From NCBI RefSeq assembly GCF_025024155.1, contig NW_026251732.1, positions 124,001 through 188,000 on the forward strand: DNA of 64,000 nucleotides, in the 5' to 3' direction. The position numbers and the translations under genes were made by a program. Origin of the DNA: Gamsiella multidivaricata. Its lineage: Eukaryota; Mortierellomycota; Mortierellomycetes; Mortierellales; Mortierellaceae. This document shows, one piece after another, positions 1,366 through 64,000 of the stretch. The notes under the pieces were generated by a model that was not told where the DNA came from, ran no database searches, and saw nothing but the letters and a program-made list of their open reading frames with translations. Numbering within the stretch: the first letter of the stretch is position 1; each line of letters starts with the position of its first letter.

Positions 1366-3399
1366 ATGAAGGACCCCATCAGCTGCGGCATTGTCCCCTC
1401 ACCTGTCCTTGACTCCTCTGCCTCTGTCTTCATGGCCTCCAACACCACCAACACAGTGACTACCACTGCCAGCGCCAACACTAGCGAAACTTCGCGTCTC
1501 TTTGGCAAGGCCAGATCCAACTCTTCCCGCCGCAGAGCCAGCATCGACCACCAGACTGGCAAACCTCACCACTATGATCACCGGCGGCATCATCACCACG
1601 ACCCTACTAAGGGTCGCTCCCCCTCACCTCCCGAGGGTGCCCGACGTCTCGCGGTTGCGGATCAGCAGGTCCTCAAATACAGCGCGGATAATGCTCAGAT
1701 CCATGTCCACCGTCCTGCCAGACAGAGCTGGCCCTCTTTTCTGATCCAGCACCAGCTCGTTCTCTCCTGCTCCGTGATCCTCGCCATCTTTGCAGCCCAC
1801 GCCCTAGTTCTTTTGGAGGAAGCGCGCAAAGGCCACTCTATCGACTGGATCGGAAGTCTCTCGGCGATCGTCCCTCCCCCGATCTGGCAAAACCTCCCTC
1901 AATCTTGGACTAGGGCTTCCTCAGGCGGACCTGCTATCGTCAAGAAATGGGATGGATCCAAGGCTGGTGTCTACAGCCCTAACGAGTCTTGGTCGTCTTT
2001 GGCAATGGGACTGCAGTACCAAGAGATCGTGGTCGATGAGGTGACGGGAGCGAAGCAAGTACTTTATAGTAAGGGATGGAACGATCTATACATGGTTATG
2101 GTCTGGGTCATGATCTGGACTGCCATTCGTGAGGCGGCCATGAGCTATGTCTTCATCCCCTTGGGTCGGTCCTTCGGAGTTGGTGAGCTCAAAACGAAGA
2201 AAATTGGGAAGGGTAGTGAAGCTACAGTTTCATCAACTGCAAAAGCAGGATCGGCAACAAGGAAGCCTGGTGAGCCCGCGTCGCCATCAGCAACAGGAAT
2301 AAACACAAAAACGGTTCAAGGATCGGGTGATGCCAATAGGACGGAGAGTATCCAGCAAAAGAAGGAGCAGCATGCACGCGAGGGCAAATTACTTCGATTT
2401 GCAGAACAAGGTACGGCGCTTCGTCGATGGCTTGTTGATCTTTTCTGGGTACCCACATGTAGGAATGGATGGAGATGTCCCCTGGTTAAGAATAGACTTT
2501 ATGCTCACTCACCTTCTATACTATCTTAATTTTAGGATGGTTGGTGCTCTACGACGGCTGTATGTGGACCTTCGGCATTGTAAGTGCATGCACGCATACA
2601 GTTTTTTCGTTGTATCTCTCGCAATGTATGTACATGCAACTGCAGCACGACCCAAGCTGATCTCCTTTCAAATGAACAGTATCTGCTTTACCACTCTGCC
2701 TATTGGTCCGACACGACCTACTACTGGCGCGATTACCCCAAGACGCACCTGGACGCAACCATGAAGTGGTACTACCTCATCCAATTCGCTTTTTGGATCC
2801 AACAGCTCTTACTCGCCATCCTTGGAATCGAAAAGCGTCGGAAAGACTTTCTCGAGTTCATGATCCACCACATCATTACCTGTCTTCTTATCGGCTTCTC
2901 CTACTCCTGTAACCTTACCTCTGTCGGCCATGCTGTCCTCTGCGCCATGGACTTTTCTGATATCATCCTCGCAGCCTGCAAGATGCTCAAATATATGCAC
3001 AAGGATCAACTCGCTGACGTCGGATTCGTCTTCTTTGTGTTCACTTGGATCCTCTCGCGCCACTACTATTACGGCGTCATTATTTGGTCCACTTTTGCCG
3101 AGGCTCCCAAATACGCGGCCATGGGTTGGGACCCTACCAAAGGAATGTATTTCACGCCCAAGATCTTACAAGGATTTCAGTTCCTACTGTGTTCGCTTTA
3201 CATGGTTCTGCTGTTCTGGCTGGCGATGATCATCCGTGTGGTTATAAAGGTCCTCAAGGGCGGGAATAGCGAGGACGTCAGGAGCGAAGATGAAGATGAG
3301 GAGGAGGTCAAGGTGGGCGAGGTGGAGAAACTGAGGAGTGAGCCAGCACTATTGGAAAATGTCTCTCTCGCCGCCAACGGAACCCCTGCCCTCGCCTGA
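1366..3399 (+). CDS. Ceramide synthase, TLC domain (Lag1/Lac1 family)
   Basis: Acyl-CoA-dependent ceramide synthase of the ER membrane, joining a sphingoid base to a fatty acyl-CoA. Proposed exons 1366-2410, 2536-2579, 2680-3399 (602 aa); the 44-nt middle exon is fixed by phase and restores the GWLVLYDGCMWTFGI segment normal for Lag1 proteins. The Lag1 motif lies in exon 3: the HH pair at residues 426-427 (MIHHIITC) and the acidic DFSD at 454-457, between several hydrophobic helices. The N-terminal ~120 residues are Ser/Thr/His-rich, and a Lys/Ser-rich insert (about 290-340) lies between the first TM pair and the TLC core. The C-terminus is acidic (DEDEEEVK), typical of fungal Lag1/Lac1. The start is the first ATG of the frame; a later one (the Met at residue 23) is possible. 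Family assignment is secure; which paralog is not. Confidence 0.93.
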
Positions 3400-3665
3400 T
3401 GAACTTTTAGTGAAAAAGCACTTGTAACATACCTATTTAATAACAATTTACCTCCATCTTGATATCTCTCTATTCATCTGTCATGTTCATAACACCCTTA
3501 TTGTGGCTGCACTGAATTTGAGTCTGGTGCGCATCTTTCATCTTTTTCCGTGTCCCAACATCACCATCAATATCCACACTGCGAACGGTCCGTTGGATGA
3601 TCCTTTTTTTTATTGCACTCTTTCAATGTCAAAATGAAAGAAAAAAAAAAAAACAAGTACTCCAT

Positions 3666-4979
3666 TCAGTGTCTGTGCTTGATGGTGGACGGCGCTAAGC
3701 CAAAGTTTTCGGTGACAGGCATACCCATCTCACCGCAGATGACCTTTATCATCGCAAAGTGGTGCACCTAACGATGTTACACAAAAACGAGCGAGATCAG
3801 CATTTCGTGCAATGGTTGAGCCGTACAGCCTAGACAACAAAAATCCATTTAAACTAACCGCATGTAGACTGCAGAACCAGAGCTCGCGACCAAAGGTGGT
3901 CTGAAATTTGACGGGCGGGTGGGCAGGGTCGATCGTCGCATGAAGGGTCAAGGCTTTGGAGAGGTCCGTTGGTGTCCCCTCTGACGGTGAATTGCCGCGA
4001 CGACATTCTTCTAGAACATGTTGGAGTCTTGAAAGCTCCTTGATCGCATAGTCCATATCTGTCTCCATCGGGACCTATGTTTGTTTTCCAAGAATTAGAT
4101 GGAAGGTAAAGGATTCTTCGATAGTGCCTTGTGAATAGCCGAAGGTGTCCAGTAATAGGAGTCTTCACTGCGTTACCTCTCGTGACCTGGCGTCGTAATC
4201 CACAGACCATTTGTCCTTTGATGATAGACCCTAAGTTAAAAAAAAAGATGCAAGAACCCATTAGCAGTTGCACATCAGGCTATAACCAAAACCAGTTTCA
4301 TGCGCGTCCTTCGATTCAAGGAAAGCCCCTTCTCTGCGTCATCTGTCCATCATGGACACATAACAAACGAAACCCCCTGCTTTTTACCTTGTTGGGCGGA
4401 TAGGTCGATAAGAGCAGTCGATAATGATCATGAAGATGCCGAACATGTTTCCCAATCGTGCCCTGACATGCCAGCTTTGATGGCTTAGTGTACATCTCCG
4501 AACGTCTACATACCCCCGTGGTCGCGTGAGTACCTAAGTACCGTTCAAGATCAAAGCATTAGAGTCGAGGCGCTCTCCACAATAAGGTCGCCACCATCCC
4601 CCCCCTCTTTTTCTCTTTATTGTACCCATGCGCACTTACTTTCATTTACACCTCGATCCACAGAATCCTCTGTGGTATGATGCCCGTTCGTATGATGCCC
4701 GTTCGCGTGATTCCCATTGACGCCCGCCTTTTGCTGATGTCGCTTCTCCTGCTCCTGATGTTCCTCCTCGGCGACAGCAGCCTTCAAAGACTGGAGTAGC
4801 TCCGCACAGTCCTGTAGTGAGCGTGCCGCGACTGTAAAGATATGCTCCAGGTCGTTCTCGCTCTCGTTCTCTGGTTCATGAGTCAGTGCTGTATAGGACC
4901 CGTTCATCGACGCTTCCGAGCCCTTAGCTGCCACAGTCGCAGAGGAGGAGGAAGGCGCCTCGGGGGTGGTAGTGGCCAT
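3666..4979 (-). CDS. DinB-superfamily protein with low-complexity N-terminus
   Basis: Proposed exons in transcription order: 4979-4640, 4533-4388, 4230-4177, 4074-3859, 3767-3666 (285 aa). All junctions are GT-AG and keep frame. The C-terminal two thirds match fungal DinB-like four-helix proteins: GTIGKHVRHLHDHYRLLLS, then DKWSVDYDARSRE, then FGRELWFCSLHAVHHFAMIK and the ending APSTIKH. The conserved histidines in RHLHDH and AVHHFA are the expected metal ligands of the DinB fold. The N-terminal ~110 residues are Ser/Glu/His/Asn-rich with an HTNGHHTNGHHT repeat. Function is unknown; bacterial relatives include metal-dependent thiol transferases, but no substrate can be inferred. The next gene upstream is on the same strand. 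Confidence 0.85.
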
Positions 4980-5324
4980 AGTGAGAAACGAGGAGGCGAT
5001 GCTGCAAAAGTGCGGAGAAACAAAAATGAGAAAATCTAGGCCGAGCCCGATATAGTTGTGAGGTGGAAGGTCTGGAACGTAAAAAATAAAAACACAAACT
5101 GCTGCTGAATATGATGACTGGATCGAGATGAGGTAGAGGGCGTTTGCGATGAGGTTGATGAGTAATGGCAAAAGGAAGAGGAAGTTAGCAAGGTCAAGGC
5201 AAACCGGTGTGCACAAAGACTTCTCTGTGCTCCTTTTTTGTATTCATCTCCGCGCCTAACAAATGACGCCATCAGTCAACGCACGTGATGCATGTGGGGT
5301 AAAAGATCTTGTTTGTATTTGGCT
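4980..5324 (-). other. Leader/promoter between two minus-strand genes
   Basis: This 345-bp gap holds the 5' leader of the DinB-like gene and the 3' end of the F-box-like gene. Its minus strand is TC-rich. A minus-strand frame continues upstream of the chosen Met at 4979 (in-frame start at 5216), but that stretch is hydrophobic and low-complexity and is probably leader. Confidence 0.5.
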
Positions 5325-7148
5325 TCAAAGGGCTGTCGGGAACAGTGGGATGGCGGTGGAGTCCTGGCTCGCGGCCTCGCTGTCCGTGACCTTCTTCAGC
5401 AACAGCCTCGCCTGCGTAATCTCAGGCACAGGCCCCATCAGCTCTCGTCGCACAATCCCATACTTCCAGATCAGCTCTCGGGAGAAGCCCTCGTGCGCCA
5501 GCATTTCCTCCAAAATATTGCGTGCGTTTAGGAGCCCCATGTTTTGCTTCAGGAGCCCCAGCAGCTGCTCCAGTGCTGCCTCATCCTCCGCCTCGTCTGC
5601 TTCGACCATAGTGTCCGGCCCCTTCTCAGCCGCAGCAGCCGCCTTGCCTTTTTCTTTGTCTGCTTTGGACCCTGGCGCCAAGTCTTCCCATTCCATATCC
5701 GAGCAGTCATTGTCGTCAGTTTCACCTACGACCCTATTGGCACCCTCAAGACGCTGCTCCTTCAACAGAACCCCTGTTCGTCTCAGTTCTCCATCCTTTG
5801 TATCGTGATCCTTGCAATCCGTCCGAGTAATCCACTCCAGAACCGGCCCTGCACGAAGATTCACTGAGATAAAGTCCCGAGGGAGCACCGAAACATCGAA
5901 TCCGTTCATCGCTAGCTCGCCCCGGAGATGCCGACTGACACCCCGCCTCCTAACCTCACTCGCCAATCTATTGAACCGCTCGGCATAAATCCGTCCAATT
6001 CTCTCCTGTGGAAACGGATCCTCCAGTGCAATCGGATCCTCCTCCATCCTTCTAGTCGCAACCGCACCCACTTGCCTTGGCTTGATCGGCAGCGGTAAAC
6101 CCGAGGTCACAAACTTCCATGACACGCGAATATAATCGACCTTCATGCGCAGCTGGTACGGGTTCTCGTTCTCCTGGTCTGACACCATCGTGTACTTCAT
6201 AATAAAGTCCTGATCCCCAATATAATGAACACCCTTAGATAACATGAACTTGTACTGCTTCTTCGACGCCATGACTACATGCCCGACCGTATGCACCAAC
6301 TGACGTGCCTCCTCTGCGAGGGCTGCGGCCGTCATCCCCATTCCCGTTCGTGCATTCTGTGGTCCCGTTGTCCCAGTCAGTCCCAGTACCCTGCGAGTGA
6401 ACTGCGCCATGTAACTTTCGCCTGGTTGTGACCCCTCCTGAGGCGTTGTAGTGCTTCCCACTGCCATTGTCGAAAACAGAGAAGACGTACCAAGCGCAGA
6501 AGAAAAGACGTTGCGGACGGGTTGCATCTGGGATAGAGGCGTGATGGGTCCAGGCCTGGCTAGCTCCTGTTGAATCTGATACTCTGTGCTTTGAATCACA
6601 CCAGCCTGTGTAATACTCGACCTACGACCCCTACCTCCACCCACTGTCTCGGTCGCCGTGGTGCCCTGGCCACTCGGCGTCCCCGATGAAGAAGCCGACG
6701 CGGCCTGTTGTAGTCGCTGCTCCTCCCAGATATTCAGGTCCAGATTCCCCAACGTATACTCACTCCACTCATATATTGGGCCACCATCCGGTCCCAGTGT
6801 CGCGGACCTCGGAGATGGTCCACCTCCTGGCCGCCCGTCGCCGTCGACCGCAGCAGGTTCAGACTGTTGAATAAACTCCAGGTAATTATGTCGAATATCG
6901 TATCGATTGAACACTACTGTGAGAGGGTCATGCTGACGGTTGAGGGTGATGCGGACATAGCAGGCTGTGAGGTCATGCTTTCCTCGAGGGGTGATGGATC
7001 CTGCAGGCATAGCGTGCGCTCTGCGGGATGTTAAGGAACCATCGACACAGTCGCGAAAGCCTTTGGAGATGAGGCGGAGGCTGGCGAGGACATGAAGGCT
7101 GCAGAAGGAACAGACAAGCTGGAAGGTTTCGACCGGAAGAGAATCCAT
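5325..7148 (-). CDS. F-box-like domain protein, uninterrupted frame
   Basis: A 607-aa single-exon protein. The N-terminus (MDSLPVETFQLVCSFC, then LASLRLISKGFRDCVD) has the hydrophobic and Leu-Pro pattern of an F-box, suggesting a substrate adaptor of an SCF ubiquitin ligase. It lacks clear leucine-rich repeats. After the F-box comes a conserved-looking region (residues about 55-100), a Gly/Ser/Thr-rich linker (about 110-250), then a globular segment (about 265-460) and an acidic, Ala/Lys-rich stretch near 500-530. The 3' end (LLKKVTDSEAASQDS) looks complete. The substrate cannot be named. The F-box call rests on a weak motif, so it could be another N-terminal helical domain. Confidence 0.75.
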   Translation of the reverse strand: MDSLPVETFQLVCSFCSLHVLASLRLISKGFRDCVDGSLTSRRAHAMPAGSITPRGKHDLTACYVRITLNRQHDPLTVVFNRYDIRHNYLEFIQQSEPAAVDGDGRPGGGPSPRSATLGPDGGPIYEWSEYTLGNLDLNIWEEQRLQQAASASSSGTPSGQGTTATETVGGGRGRRSSITQAGVIQSTEYQIQQELARPGPITPLSQMQPVRNVFSSALGTSSLFSTMAVGSTTTPQEGSQPGESYMAQFTRRVLGLTGTTGPQNARTGMGMTAAALAEEARQLVHTVGHVVMASKKQYKFMLSKGVHYIGDQDFIMKYTMVSDQENENPYQLRMKVDYIRVSWKFVTSGLPLPIKPRQVGAVATRRMEEDPIALEDPFPQERIGRIYAERFNRLASEVRRRGVSRHLRGELAMNGFDVSVLPRDFISVNLRAGPVLEWITRTDCKDHDTKDGELRRTGVLLKEQRLEGANRVVGETDDNDCSDMEWEDLAPGSKADKEKGKAAAAAEKGPDTMVEADEAEDEAALEQLLGLLKQNMGLLNARNILEEMLAHEGFSRELIWKYGIVRRELMGPVPEITQARLLLKKVTDSEAASQDSTAIPLFPTAL

Positions 7149-58051: not shown

Positions 58052-58815
58052 GGCTTGGGGGCGTGTAGTGTTGTTACACTAAACTTTGAATCGCCTTAAG
58101 TAACGCCAAGTGGCAAAGTTGATCCAGTAAATGGTCAGTAGGCCACGTTGACAGCCAACACGGCCTCTAGAGATATAGCAGTAGGAACCAGTAAGAACGA
58201 CTGTTGTTCCTTTCAACTAAAATATGACTAGGATGAAACCATTACGCTCGGAGGCCACAACCCCTCACAACCCCGGGTCGGGCATAATTGACTTAGATTA
58301 CACCAGGGGGCAAGCTGCGTTGTGTAACCTATGCTATGCAAGACATGAGCAAAGTCGGGGGATTTATTTAAGGGGTTTAGTTGTGGGAAGCGCTGTGCTT
58401 CTGCCTTCTAACCTTCCCATAATACACGAGTACCTTCGTCCATCTTTCTCATTCTCAACGCATACCCCCCTCCCGCACACACGCACACACACACACGCAT
58501 ACACGCACATACATTCTTCTCGCTGACGCCCGTTTCTCAAGCGCACATCGAGAGTCGTTACAGAAGGTACATCTCTCCATCCGACCATCACTCCATCGCT
58601 CCATCGCTCCTACCCCTGTCTGCGAAAATAGAATGTGCGGCCTCTTTGGCTATATGTCCATACGGGTGCGGACTTTTTGCCATAGTTTAAATGGCTAAAT
58701 GGCTCCCGTAATAAGAGAAATAATTGCTCTTTCTTACTTTGATCCGGCTTATACTTCTATTATTGCTCTTTTCACATCACATTTTAACGCGTATACTCTC
58801 CTACAACTTCAAAAG

Positions 58816-60220
58816 ATGGCAAAGCCACGTAGTAGGATGCTCCTAGCCTGTGGGCTGTCGTTGTTAATTTTTTCGTACTACGCAATCTACATGGGTATAA
58901 GAAACAAGCCTTTTACGCTCACAAGAACGCTCCAATGTCCCATTCCCGACAATGAAGATGTCTGCATCCATCATCAAGCAAACAAGAGGGACTTCGTGCA
59001 ACTGTGCAAAAACATCCTTCCGTCGGTCGGCACCTGTCAAGATCGAATGTACGGAGCGATTGTGACCACCGAGGGATTCATCACAGAGGCCAGCAACAAC
59101 ACGTATACGATGATTGTGCAAGGAAATCGCCTCGGGAAAGAGATGGATAACTTCGTGCAAACAAGGTCTCATTGGATGATTGACACCATGAGCGAGGAAG
59201 GATATGAGGTGCTGAGGTCGTTCGCCGATACCGAGCGTCTCGCCTTGCAGAAGGAGCTGGATCAAGTACAGCATCAATGCGTCCGTTTCTTTAACGGAGC
59301 AGTCGGTTTTAATGGTTTCGGATCCAACTGGCACAACTTGGGTCTGGGGCTTGCCTATGGCCTGCACTACAACATGACGCTGTCACCTCCACACAAGTAC
59401 GAAAACTTCATACCCATGACGACATGCACCCAGGAAGAAATGGAAAGGGCTTTCAGCGAACACCCTCCAGAGACTGAATATTCCAGATGGAACGTCTCCA
59501 CGGTCAACTTCAAATCCCTTTTCGAAGACGTCCACGCTCTGATGAACAACATAACCATCATCAGGCCTGAATTTCAGCACAAGGGCCATTTCTGGTGGAG
59601 GTCCATGTTGACCTATTATGCCGTACGACCCAATTTCAGGTAACTAGAACATCAACATTCTGTTCAACCTCACCATCATCAAAGCTGAATTTCAGCAATA
59701 AGACTATCTCGAACTGAGATCTATATCGACCTAATATGCCATACTACACAACTTTAGGATGAGGGAGCTAATCAGGCAGTCTGCGGTCGTAAAAACTCCC
59801 TGCATCTCCATCCATGTGAGACGTTCGGATAAGTTTATGGAGGCTGCGCCCATTGCATTCCCAGAGTACATGAAGCAGGCCGCTTTAATGAGGGACAGGA
59901 CAGGAATATCGAATATTTATCTCATGACGGACGACGAAGAAATCATAATGTCGACCAAACAGTACCCCGACTTCCAGTTTCGCTACACGAATGTAACAAG
60001 GTCGAATAAGGGATGGGCCGCCGACAGAGATAGTGGTTTGTCCATGGATTATCAGGAGAAGGTTTTTCTGGTTGACCTGTTTTCTGTCGCACAATGCCAG
60101 CACAGCATCGTCACATACTCCAGCAACGTTGGTAGGCTCATCGCAGAACTCTCGTACGCGATGCGAAACAAAGAACCCGATGTCGTGTCTATGGACATAA
60201 AATGGATGATGGAACCATAG
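58816..60220 (+). CDS. FUT8-like alpha-1,6-fucosyltransferase (GT23-type)
   Basis: Exons 58816-59639 and 59758-60220 (428 aa). The ATG at 58816 gives a short cytoplasmic tail, then a type II membrane anchor (MLLACGLSLLIFSYYAIYM, residues 10-28), as expected for Golgi glycosyltransferases. The open frame extends to 58699, but that start would bury the anchor. The catalytic region shows SIHVRRSDKFMEA (GT23 motif I, donor binding), SNIYLMTDDEEI, NKGWAADRDSG, and SVAQCQHSIVTYSSNVGR near the end. Cysteines and N-glycosylation sequons (NNT, NMT, NVS, NIT) dot the lumenal part. The family uses GDP-fucose on N-glycan cores; actual substrate here is unproven. The single intron is unusual (see findings). 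Confidence 0.88.
59554..59757 (+). repeat. Exon end (59554-59639) and its intronic copy (59672-59757)
   Basis: The 86 bp before the splice donor and the 86 bp before the splice acceptor align without gaps, about 62 of 86 identical by eye. The offset is 118 bp, exactly the intron length. Translated in the frame that runs into exon 2, the intronic copy reads LTIIKAEFQQ, a stop, then a stretch ending AILHNFR, parallel to the exonic ITIIRPEFQH ... YAVRPNFR. Confidence 0.85.
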
Positions 60221-60468
60221 AATATATATATATATATATATATTAACGAGAACTCACAAGAAAGTAGCTCGTCTCTCTCCGAAAATCGTCATCGAAGTCG
60301 TTCTTCCCGCGGAGACGTGCCACCTAAACTAGAAGTGTGCTTGCTAACACACATAATTGGAAAATAAAGATAGACTAACTATGAGAATTTGGCAAACTCG
60401 CTTACGGTGGGCATCTTGCATGGACACTGTTCGCTTGTGTCCATCGCCCTTGCCCTGGCCCCACCGCG
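60221..60468. other. Convergent gap with AT microsatellite
   Basis: Between the fucosyltransferase stop and the stop of the nuclease pseudogene. An (AT)n run sits at 60224-60243. No transposon end was identified here. Confidence 0.5.
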
Positions 60469-63400
60469 TTACTGCTGCCGCCGCTCCCGCTGCGCTGCAG
60501 CCGGCTTCTGTGTGCGATCTTGCATTCTGCATCTAAGGGTAGTGCCCATTTTATCCACCGGTTGAAGATAGAAAGGTCGTTGTTGATTGACCAAATGGCG
60601 ACGAATCGCATTGACAATGTTGTGCCCTGCCATGATATCGCGGTGCACGTAAGACTTGCAGATCGAGCAGTACAGCCTACGGATCTCGACCTGCCCGACA
60701 AATTTCTCGCATGTCGGGCACTTCTTGGACGTACAGTATTCCTCAAGGCCTGGCCTATAGGACAGGAAGGCGAAGTCAGTAAAATATACGAAATGACTTT
60801 ATCATTTTTTAAACAAAATACGACTGGAAGGACTCATGCAGCGAGGAAAGCATCGTCTTGCTTGAAAACTTGTCCAAACCGACTCCAATAACCACCTTGC
60901 TAGCTTCATCCCTCTTTCTGCCGATCGACCCGCCAACCAACTTGAGTAGGCGATCCGTTATGAGCCTGTACTACGCATCCCTGGCCCCTCTCCATCCTAC
61001 TTGTGCTTCTTGAAACGGTTGTTGCCATTGTAAAACTCATTCAGTTGTCTATCTACTCTCTCCAGCTCCGTAACATAGCTCTCAAAGCTGGTCTCGATGT
61101 CGTTGATGAATTCTAGCCCGTCACCTGGGACGATGCTTTTTGCTCTTCTATCCATCCTCTGTGCTTGAAAGCGTGTTGGTACACAACCTTCTACTTCACT
61201 GCGAGGTTGAATAGGTGGCAGGACTGGGAGTTGGAGTTATACCATCGGAAGAGTTGCTCATGTCGACATCAGCATCCTTGCTTCTAGGCGCCGTTGTCGT
61301 ACTGCCGGAATGATCGTTCTTTGGTAGCAACGCGCTCGCTCCGAGTACACAGGCTTGGCCGAGATCTATATCCAGGACCTTGATTTGATCGGGCGCACAT
61401 CCTACAGGTCGACGACATCTTGCTGGGACTTCGCAATGTTTCGAACCTCCATCGAGTAATAACTCACTCCTCCGACTGTGGATGTGATTTGAAGGGGCTA
61501 GACGCCCTGCAGGAGTCGCCTGTATCTGACTGACTGCAGTTCTTTTAACTTGAAAGCTAGCAGCTAAAGACGAAACCCGTCTGTCCGAATAGAGAGCTTC
61601 GGTGAACGTAGCCGCGTCCCTTGTAAGTCGTAGGATCGAAGTCAGCCTGCCGAATGAATTGAACATGTTCTCGCATCATGCTCAGGTCCATCACGGACGT
61701 CGAATCCTTGTAATCCCTTGGTCCTTTGCGTGCCTCATTTCTGCCGATGTTTGAAAGCATCTCTGTGATAAGGAATCTGGGAGTCTTTCCCTGAAGCCAC
61801 TTGCTTGGATCGCTCTTGGAGGGGATGATGCTCTTGTCCTCGAAGTCCACCAGCACCAGCTCCTGAAGTTTTCCTTAGGCGCAGCGTTTTGCCAAAACAA
61901 CGTACCGAACTCTCGCTCAGAGAGCGATATGAAAGGTTGCTCCATGCTCGTTAGTAAGGCCGTCTTGCGATAGCTCTTGCTGGACTGGTTCAGAAGCACG
62001 ATATTCTCGATTGCCGGGATGTCTTGGTCGATCTCTGTACATACTCCATCTGATACGAGACCCTTCGCGTTTAAAGTTTTTGGCTATTATAAACAAATTA
62101 TCAACTACCCTCTATTGGCATGCATGAAGCAACGGAAACGTATTTGCATTCTACCTTTTTCTCTAGCTCAATGCTGCCGTTTCTGTATTGTTTTTTGACC
62201 TCTGTGAGCAACTGCGAGGCAACAGAGCGGAGTAAATCCGTAGCAGGGTATGGCTTCCTGGCCACGATGGCGCCTCTATCATTCCTCCTCTGCAGCAGCA
62301 TGAAATCCGCTGCTCGATCGACAAACTGCTGGACGTGCTTACCAACTGCATTCGTGGTAACGATAGAGTCGTATATGTGGAGATTGTGGAGCAGCACAGT
62401 ATGGAACTGTAGGTGGTCTGAGTCCTTGCGTTCTAGATCACCAACGTCCTTTTCCTGCTCTTTCTCAGCCTTCTCCTGTCCATCATAGTCATCCGCATCG
62501 GTCTCTCCCCCGACTTTGGAGCTCTATGCCGTTGAACTTTAACACTACTAGATTCGCTGTTGCAGGTTCATATGAACCATAACGAGACAGAATAGGTAAA
62601 GGTAATCGAATGAATGAATGAATCCAAGCAAATGATGACTTCGAGGAATGAAAATACTCATATTTACCTGTTCTATGCTTGCATTTGGAAGTACAGCTGA
62701 GAAAGACAATCAAACTTCTTTCGAAGTCCACTATAGGGCATGGCAGCTTGAACAGGAGAGGGAGTAGACAGTTTCAAATAAGCCTGTAATAAATCCACTA
62801 AACTCCTCTGTGAAGTGGTAAATGCTTTCTGGGGAGTATCGTTGCAGCCTCTGCAAGCCGAAAATATATATATGAAAAGTCGGGTTGGGGATACGTTTTA
62901 TGTATCAGTAACATACACAGTAATCTATTTAATAAAAGCTTACCTTCTCCATCCAGTTCCTTGATGACTTTGTAGTTGGTGGCACTTCCGAGAGAGGGGA
63001 TGTTACGGCTGTAGTCGTTTTTGAACACTATACCGAGCACTGTGAACTGGACCAGGCTGGGATCTAGAGTTATATGGGCGCTTGGAACGTCGTACACAAA
63101 GAACTTTCCTTTCGAGATGGATCGTTAAATAGTCTCGGCACCCGTGTACTAAGCATGGCACTGCCTCTTAGTACGACGATGTCATCAGGATTACACTCAA
63201 GGTTCATCGTGGGATCTGCTTCGGTCAAGCACTCGATGACGGTCCACTGTTTTTGCGCATGTAATATGCAAAGGCTTGTGGAGCGTCCATAGACCAACGG
63301 AAGGCTGACCTCAAGTCCTTGTGGGCGTCGATGAAGCGATATCTCCATATACGAAGCTTTTTATCCGGAAGGCGCTCGAGCCCATGTAAGTGTATATCGA

Positions 63401-63725
63401 CACGCTCAAGAGTCTTCCTACGTAGGTCCTTCCGATGCACTTGAGTGAGTCTCTTTTCTTCTGAAGGGTCGCCATCCAGGTAAAAGAAAAGGCTTGCTTG
63501 GATCCCAAGCTTCCGTACTTCTCGCTCAATGCAATGAGCATCCTCCATGGGATGTGGGGAATAGGCGTAGCGGATGGTGACATAAAACGAGCCAAGGATA
63601 TCGAATCGAATCGCCGAGTTGTGATCAAAAGCGTTGGGGAGGTTCAACAAGTGGGAGGACTGATGATGAAGAACAAGCTCATACCCTTTCTTCCGTAGAA
63701 AGGGCCACAGGCTCTCAATACCCAT
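60469..63725 (-). pseudogene. FEN/XPG-like nuclease joined to a TnpB/Fanzor-like RuvC and zinc ribbon, decayed
   Basis: Reading from 63725: MGIESLWPFLRKKGYE, the FEN/XPG start; IRFDILGSFY (metal Asp position); FFYLDGDPSEEK (compare FEN1 VFDGKPP); then, after a frameshift near 63240, TVIECLTEADPTM and NPDDIVVLRGSAML; after another near 63090, VLGIVFKNDYSRNIPSLG (compare FEN1 LLGSDY). Then come spliced or shifted fragments (62731-62489, 62397-62101, 61999-61560). RuvC signatures follow: KVLDIDLGQACVLGASALLP at 61330-61375 (RuvC-I Asp), VVIGVGLDKFSSKTMLSSLH near 60850, EEYCTSKKCPTC (Glu plus first CxxC) near 60720, LYCSICKSYVHRDIMAGHNI (second CxxC and RuvC-III Asp) near 60640, stop at 60469. 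Two stops fall where sense codons are expected (near 61190 and 60970), and there are at least four frameshifts, so it is a pseudogene. The two-nuclease architecture is inferred from colinearity on one strand. Confidence 0.7.
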
Positions 63726-64000
63726 GGTTGTCTACACGATAAGATATCGATTTTTTTAAAACAATGAAAATAAAGGAAGATGAGAATATGGGAACAGTGA
63801 AGGAGCGTGAGAATGTATGAACGGGAAGAAAGATGAGACTTATGTGAATGGCATTGAGCAGGGGAAGGAAAGGGTTCTCACATACGATCGCCAGGTACCT
63901 ACCTGGCTACTGTGTTGCACCTGATCGGCCATTGGCATTCGTGCGCAAATAGCCTCTTTATTATCTTTGTTCTTGTTCGCCAGGCTCGCTGTTGCACTTT
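63726..64000 (-). other. 5' flank of the nuclease pseudogene, window edge
   Basis: Non-coding, with a CT-rich minus strand. No terminal inverted repeat or target duplication was recognised, and the region is cut by the window end. Confidence 0.4.

Follow-up and report, generated by a model that had tools for sequence, protein, structure and literature searches.

A probable dead Mutator-like transposon with a proposed RNA-guided FEN–Fanzor nuclease in Gamsiella multidivaricata

A 64,000-nucleotide stretch of the genome of the fungus Gamsiella multidivaricata (RefSeq assembly GCF_025024155.1, contig NW_026251732.1, positions 124,001 to 188,000; hereafter the window, C98:124001-188000 in our numbering of the 180 contigs of this 37.5-Mb genome) holds, on its minus strand, the remains of a gene joining a FEN/XPG-like nuclease to a Fanzor-type RuvC nuclease. 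Fanzor1 proteins are eukaryotic TnpB-like RNA-guided nucleases, and we consider this feature probably to be a dead copy of a Mutator-like transposon that carried an RNA-guided FEN–Fanzor nuclease. The fusion and mobility of the family are well supported; conservation of the catalytic acids, the age of the fusion and, in part of the family, an RNA-like 3′ structure are likewise supported.

The window copy

An original prediction, made from the letters of the window, had placed a FEN/XPG-type start and a TnpB/Fanzor-like RuvC core in order on one strand and had read them as one large two-nuclease protein, possibly of a mobile element. In the list of open reading frames (ORFs) of the window, all the quoted motifs indeed lie on the minus strand in that order, as their translations show:

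ORF 63225-63731, minus strand: MGIESLWPFL and YLDGDPSEEK
ORF 62798-63124, minus strand: NDYSRNIPSLG
ORF 61196-61675, minus strand: DIDLGQACV
ORF 60469-60798, minus strand: EEYCTSKKCPTC and CSICKSYVHRD

An annotated relative, P0002, aligns collinearly with the window by tblastn, residues 1-256 at 63725-62954 and residues 578-1214 at 62523-60544, with changes of frame and a best E-value of 3e-65. Window positions 60544-63725 (minus strand) thus hold a single protein's coding sequence in decayed form, broken by frameshifts, as predicted. The linker (P0002 residues 257-577) is mostly gone and the FEN "DSD" pair reads RGSA in ORF 63070-63360, so the window copy is dead. Its zinc end scores above the Pfam cut-off for the TnpB/Cas12f zinc ribbon (PF07282, 30.8 vs 26.3 bits). 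The element is larger than the predicted span, with its 3′ end at ~60258 and transposase-like fragments starting just beyond 64000 on the parent contig (L009). Its parts are as follows:

63252..63725, minus strand: N-terminal piece of the FEN/XPG half with the MG start, the D34-like strand and DG (D86-like); tblastn with P0002 1-156, frame -3, and ORF 63225-63731
62954..63255, minus strand: remainder of the FEN half, TEAD and NDY kept, DSD lost, two frame changes; tblastn with P0002 156-191 and 197-256, and ORFs 63070-63360 and 62798-63124
61590..62523, minus strand: N-terminal part of the Fanzor half in three frames; tblastn with P0002 578-857, model residues 419 onward resembling Fanzor
61390..61638, minus strand: RuvC-I region, IDLGQACV holding the first catalytic Asp; tblastn with P0002 844-923, 55% identity
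60544..61402, minus strand: remaining RuvC, the E of EEYCTSKKC, the four-Cys zinc ribbon and HRD with the third catalytic Asp; tblastn with P0002 920-1214, and the PF07282 match
60258..60362, minus strand: candidate two-hairpin non-coding RNA (omegaRNA-like), finishing at the element 3′ end; folding and pattern analysis
60258..60280, minus strand: element 3′ terminus; homology to other copies ceases at ~60258-60279

Chance motifs, or two unrelated ORFs, are excluded by the collinear homology to single annotated proteins.

A fusion protein with two conserved active sites

A homology search with the read-through of one young copy as query returned 24 relatives of 731-1,358 amino acids. Those with named genera come from Dissophora, Mortierella, Linnemannia, Entomortierella, Podila, Haplosporangium, Benniella and Actinomortierella, all of which we take to belong to Mortierellomycotina; additional searches brought in more relatives, and no named relative outside this group appeared among the matches listed (in one search 120 of 191, many of them unnamed metagenome proteins), the searches relying on shared 5-residue words and restricted candidates.

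Both halves occur together in these proteins, and the gene looks complete in, among others, Linnemannia hyalina (P0007), Podila verticillata (P0008) and Haplosporangium gracile (P0009). The five FEN acids of TEAD, DSD and NDY and the RuvC-I Asp lie within one protein in 20 of the 24 relatives; all ten catalytic acids are kept in seven, the remainder being without some of the columns. Where the columns are present, all seven FEN active-site carboxylates are acidic (23/23 for each of the five just named, 19/19 for the D86-like position and 16/16 for the D34-like position, assigned by motif alone; the labels follow what we take to be FEN1 residue numbers), and the later motifs align with Rad2/FEN-1. 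G2 of the MG start is found in 13 of the 18 relative models that have a residue there. The three RuvC acids are kept in 22/22, 13/13 and 12/12. Since these acids are acidic wherever their column is present, both nucleases look selected for catalysis, as far as sequence conservation can tell.

The domain assignments agree with this architecture. XPG_I and TNB occur together as precomputed domains in P0008 and P0013. With hmmscan, TNB was above its cut-off in seven of seven relatives, and XPG_I was detected in six and above cut-off in one, XPG_N not being listed; XPG_I is above cut-off in five fusion loci of the G. multidivaricata genome. The Fanzor half of the relatives contains the RuvC triad D/E/D, with its E between the last strand and TNB, the position given in PMC11423790. 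P0008 (D916, E1156-Y-Y-T-S, C1163, C1166, C1180, C1183, R-D1190) fits the C-terminal motif of Fanzor1, given by Bao & Jurka 2013 (PMC3627910) as D-X(125,275)-[TS][TS]xx-C4 zinc finger-X(5,50)-RD. In the predicted model of P0001, residues 1-248 adopt an EXO1/FEN1-like fold and residues 419-1113 resemble a complete Fanzor, with the REC-WED-RuvC-TNB fold. Each half thus matches the fold named for it in the original prediction, and neither of the outcomes named there as refuting it was observed: no half falls outside its clan and, going by gene models, the halves are not separate genes. The linker, too, has blocks conserved among the single-protein gene models. Taken together, we regard the fusion as virtually certain.

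Residues 1-25 of the annotated relative P0010 contain, by reading, a SWIM-like LPCKHSYLVSW; this gene model perhaps spans from a transposase remnant into the FEN–Fanzor gene.

Copies and lineages in the genome

The genome of G. multidivaricata holds 81 matches to the FEN half of the window copy and 145 to its zinc end. Merging leaves 65 FEN loci. In 50 of them a same-strand zinc-ribbon match follows no more than 6 kb downstream, at a distance of 3.2-4.1 kb in 29 and mostly less in the others; flipping the strands gives four such pairs, and looking upstream likewise four. A second lineage came to light through a zinc match of only ~37% identity (lineage B: L080, and L082 with the start MGVRGLYSTLKKRG), whose zinc end is above the TNB cut-off and whose FEN part matches Rad2 at 0.003 and yields no domain against Pfam. 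With a lineage B query, 52 of 77 FEN loci, a list that includes main-lineage loci again, are paired with a zinc match (46 of the 52 at 3.0-4.0 kb), compared with two when strands are flipped. Additional divergent sets (among them C108, C24, C19, C57 and C44; C158, C68 and C136) are arranged in the same order and at the same spacing. Because so divergent a second lineage has equal order and spacing, the fusion is old on this sequence evidence.

In the FEN exons of C118-type copies, the ratio of nonsynonymous to synonymous change (dN/dS) is 0.30-0.44 in six pairs among L029, L030, L034 and L035, with few changes each. Nine loci were tried and five yielded a segment; four pairs with L031 (0.79-1.02) were spoilt by a frameshift in that locus.

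L081 (C63:10500-16500) has a Fanzor-type C-terminal half with TNB above cut-off, and no FEN was noticed in this copy; MULE-like (Mutator-like element) sequence lies upstream on the same strand by reading, without a Pfam match. That L081 represents a FEN-less type was rejected in view of zinc matches of like score at C115, C136, C68 and C158, each with FEN 3.2-3.5 kb upstream. A viral origin was also rejected: in IMG/VR, a profile of the Fanzor half found four loci with ordinary TnpB/Fanzor-like frames of 398-429 amino acids and no FEN by eye, and a full-length profile gave no hit in any of 60 pattern matches.

The carrier is probably a Mutator-like element

Eleven copies of a young subfamily are 96-100% identical across ~1.8-2.5 kb, and three more are 90-94% identical across less; near-identical young copies occur at contig ends. 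Young-subfamily copies have sharp ends, GGTAGTCTGAAC... and ...AATGCTCCAACG. Mutator-like elements generate target-site duplications of 9-11 bp, and 9-bp duplications flank the two insertions of which both ends were read: L074, where 9/9 positions match, and L044, where 8/9 do. The only repeat common to both ends is CGCACYAACT at positions 18-27; long inverted repeats were not seen.

On the other strand upstream of FEN, C93 has exons for a MULE catalytic fragment (E 7e-4, under cut-off) and for a SWIM finger above cut-off, beginning FAR1-like by reading. L069 has fragments homologous to those of C93 upstream of its FEN (28% and 59% identity; MULE E 5e-5, under cut-off), as does the window copy, just beyond 64000 (30% identity). 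By reading, the start codons of the transposase and FEN–Fanzor genes lie a few hundred bases apart, so the divergent genes possibly share a promoter. The main lineage is very probably carried by a MULE-type element, which accords with the mobile origin proposed in the original prediction.

Other elements and genes were observed near FEN–Fanzor copies. The FEN–Fanzor element of L074 has a different element nested in it, presumably pogo/Tigger-like, whose inverted repeats measure 163 bp (~2815-5835, reverse strand); this nested element occurs again at L070 1-704, upstream of another FEN–Fanzor element. The FEN–Fanzor element of L070 apparently lies just upstream of another gene, beyond the element 3′ end, which we take to be the start of an RNA polymerase II large subunit gene. 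What is presumably a piggyBac-like transposase fragment lies upstream of the FEN–Fanzor copy at L029 (1-441, minus strand).

A two-hairpin guide-RNA candidate at the 3′ end

Several subfamilies carry a hairpin with the core GTGTTNGCAAGCAC downstream of the zinc ribbon. The pattern TGTGTTNGCAAGCACA has 41 genome-wide matches with at most one mismatch, versus six for the reversed pattern. Of these, 27 lie at most 700 bp downstream of a zinc match on the same strand, whereas none lies downstream of an opposite-strand zinc match and none upstream; near element 5′ ends the pattern is found in 0 of 14 cases. In window-type and L065-type copies, a long second hairpin follows the first and closes at the element 3′ end. 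Folding z-scores are -4.2 for L043, -6.4 for L040, -4.3 for L065 and -1.94 for the decayed window copy. With the structure derived from L043, 77% of cells pair; slid partners give 37-48% and shuffles 72% (0 of 500 reach the observed value), and 22 cells carry a double change versus 12.3 in shuffles (0 of 500). The pairs with a double change number 7, versus 6.7 in shuffles, which counts against the structure; covariation support for it is therefore mixed. The published description of the SpuFz1 guide RNA gives a 75-nt conserved region between the stop codon and the right-end repeat, plus 14-15 nt of flank, with two stems. Our candidate has an equal position and an equal two-stem layout.

Further observations weigh against a guide-RNA assignment. 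Fourteen of the 41 pattern matches are away from any zinc match, and the pattern was absent from the C118-, L080- and L081-type copies searched. The young subfamily has the first hairpin only (last 143 nt, z -1.45), and z is -1.15 for L063 and -0.4 for L037, whose 3′ limits were chosen without a known boundary. Antisense windows are about equally structured by z (L043, -4.1 vs -3.6; L065, -3.7 vs -4.1 and -4.3 vs -3.2), so a DNA-level palindrome has to be considered: the two-hairpin element could be a terminal DNA structure or a transcription terminator, with the protein still a Fanzor. Its place at the element end, where transposon palindromes lie, fits this explanation. Set against it, in 10 of 10 comparisons the sense strand has the lower energy, by 5-16 kcal/mol, and is richer in G-U pairs within the second hairpin; place and layout also agree with the published SpuFz1 omegaRNA. 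We judge the DNA-level explanation a serious contender, though on the unlikely side, and keep a guide-RNA scaffold as the preferred reading of the candidate.

Rfam gave no match on window 60000-64000. Beyond the zinc ribbon of L072, one structured window lies at ~300 nt, stronger on the antisense strand (z -5.5 vs -3.7); a scan downstream of L081 found no structured window. In the one lineage B copy examined, L080, the strongest structure is a very stable hairpin of ~30 pairs within the zinc-ribbon coding region (3700-3790, plus strand; z -7.1, antisense -5.5), possibly a guide RNA overlapping the ORF, an arrangement known for GtFz1 and TnpB. Window-type 3′ ends with the hairpin and no zinc match nearby occur at C1:795070 and C163:123498. 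These could be "ghost" elements that retain the RNA without the gene; such elements have been described in S. punctatus.

Neighbouring gene in the window

A fucosyltransferase-like gene lies at window 58699-60220 (plus strand) in two open frames, the second matching PF19745 (FUT8-like, 40.1 bits) and the first without a Pfam match. It stops ~38 bp short of the element 3′ end, with a (TA)n run in between.

Discussion

We propose that the intact gene, divergent from the transposase gene, would encode a protein of ~1,200-1,350 amino acids that begins with a 5′ nuclease of FEN/EXO1 type and continues through a linker of variable sequence into a full Fanzor-type RuvC nuclease. The 3′ structure would serve as guide RNA scaffold and, after SpuFz1, the guide would be the DNA just outside the element. 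The target of the Fanzor half would be DNA that matches the insertion site, such as the empty site after excision, and the FEN half would treat the resulting ends or flaps by 5′ flap removal or 5′-to-3′ resection. Repair would be steered to homology-directed copying, by which the element would be kept or multiplied. That the Fanzor half is an RNA-guided cutter seems reasonably likely from homology and anatomy. That the FEN half processes the ends made by the Fanzor half is plausible from the known chemistry of its superfamily, and we put it forward with reserve. Only tentatively do we suggest the whole combination, a guided RuvC cut and a tethered FEN/EXO1-type 5′ nuclease acting on the ends or the displaced strand, as a naturally programmable enzyme of one polypeptide that fungal transposons have retained in tens of copies from a number of deep lineages.

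Some findings on the protein and its carrier speak against this proposal. Frameshifts or stops interrupt each of the main-lineage copies examined in detail (window, C93, C159, C118 and C19), none of which is a complete gene; the single-protein status is based on gene models. Pfam did not detect the XPG domain in the window pieces, the FEN assignment being carried by relatives. The full model has a pLDDT of 72.8 with a low-confidence linker, and among solved relatives a Fanzor2 (9b0l) ranks first by sequence, a Fanzor1 by fold. For the carrier, the MULE domain matches are under the Pfam cut-off (20.5 and 24.1 vs 27.6) on exon pieces, and both ends were read in only two insertions, L074 and L044.

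The main rival to RNA guidance is that the fusion is real and serves as a transposition accessory, cleaning flaps or ends of Mutator-like intermediates, with the Fanzor half mainly binding the element ends. It would suit the MULE-type sequence found on the other strand upstream of FEN in the copies tested (C93, L069 and the window copy), as well as the conserved hairpins finishing at the element terminus, a work site of the transposase. An accessory of this kind is harder to square with invariant RuvC acids and a whole Fanzor fold, or with a first hairpin at the 3′ side of the gene and near none of 14 element 5′ ends. Moreover, no MULE was noticed by eye in open frames of at least 75 amino acids in the 4.4 kb upstream of L080 in lineage B, where no domain scan was made. 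We therefore consider an unguided accessory unlikely and continue to favour an RNA-guided FEN–Fanzor nuclease. It is very improbable that FEN and Fanzor are two adjacent genes of one transposon joined by gene prediction alone, as their different exons or frames in the genome copies read might suggest, given single-protein GenBank models with conserved linker blocks in many species, a C93 FEN exon that by reading ends at an intron-like GT...AG gap followed by the next open piece, and the fairly constant spacing of the halves in both lineages.

The family resembles several known systems. It shares with the FEN1/EXO1/XPG (Rad2) superfamily the fold, the MG start where the model extends to it, the seven acidic positions and the TEAD/DSD/NDY motifs, and differs in its fusion to Fanzor; in the fold tables it is only 11-19% identical to solved members. 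With MULEs it has in common the SWIM zinc finger, MULE-type catalytic fragments (under cut-off) and 9-bp target duplications, but it carries a second, divergent nuclease gene and its terminal inverted repeats are short and imperfect. Compared with Fanzor1 proteins (SpuFz1, PpFz1 and GtFz1), it adds an N-terminal 250-residue FEN/EXO1 nuclease and a long linker, and guidance is what we infer here.

The novelty of the fusion, suggested in the original prediction, holds provisionally. Fanzor genes in MuDR-type elements were already known: Bao & Jurka 2013 (PMC3627910) describe Fanzor1 genes in the Mucorales MuDR-like elements ROr-4, PBl-3 and MCi-4. Those elements resemble ours in a Fanzor1-type gene, a Mutator-like element, 9-bp target duplications and an early-branching fungal host, but are said there to be without MuDR transposase, whereas the family here has a MULE-type one. 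The words FEN and XPG are absent from the PMC3627910 text. By word count XPG is also absent from PMC10711439, PMC10432273 and PMC11423790, and the matches to "fen" are the name Feng. A FEN/XPG domain on a Fanzor was not found in the literature searched, which was an incomplete search; the FEN domain is therefore provisionally the new part.

The association recurs in divergent lineages, which suggests that it is useful to the element and makes a chance fusion unlikely. To our knowledge, the Fanzors and TnpBs described so far each contain one nuclease and depend on host repair to turn a cut into retention of the element. If our proposal is true, an element with its own flap nuclease or exonuclease could affect the outcome of repair. 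The use of Fanzors to transposons would become testable through two separable activities of one protein, and nature would have provided a model for programmable nucleases that also process the cuts they make.
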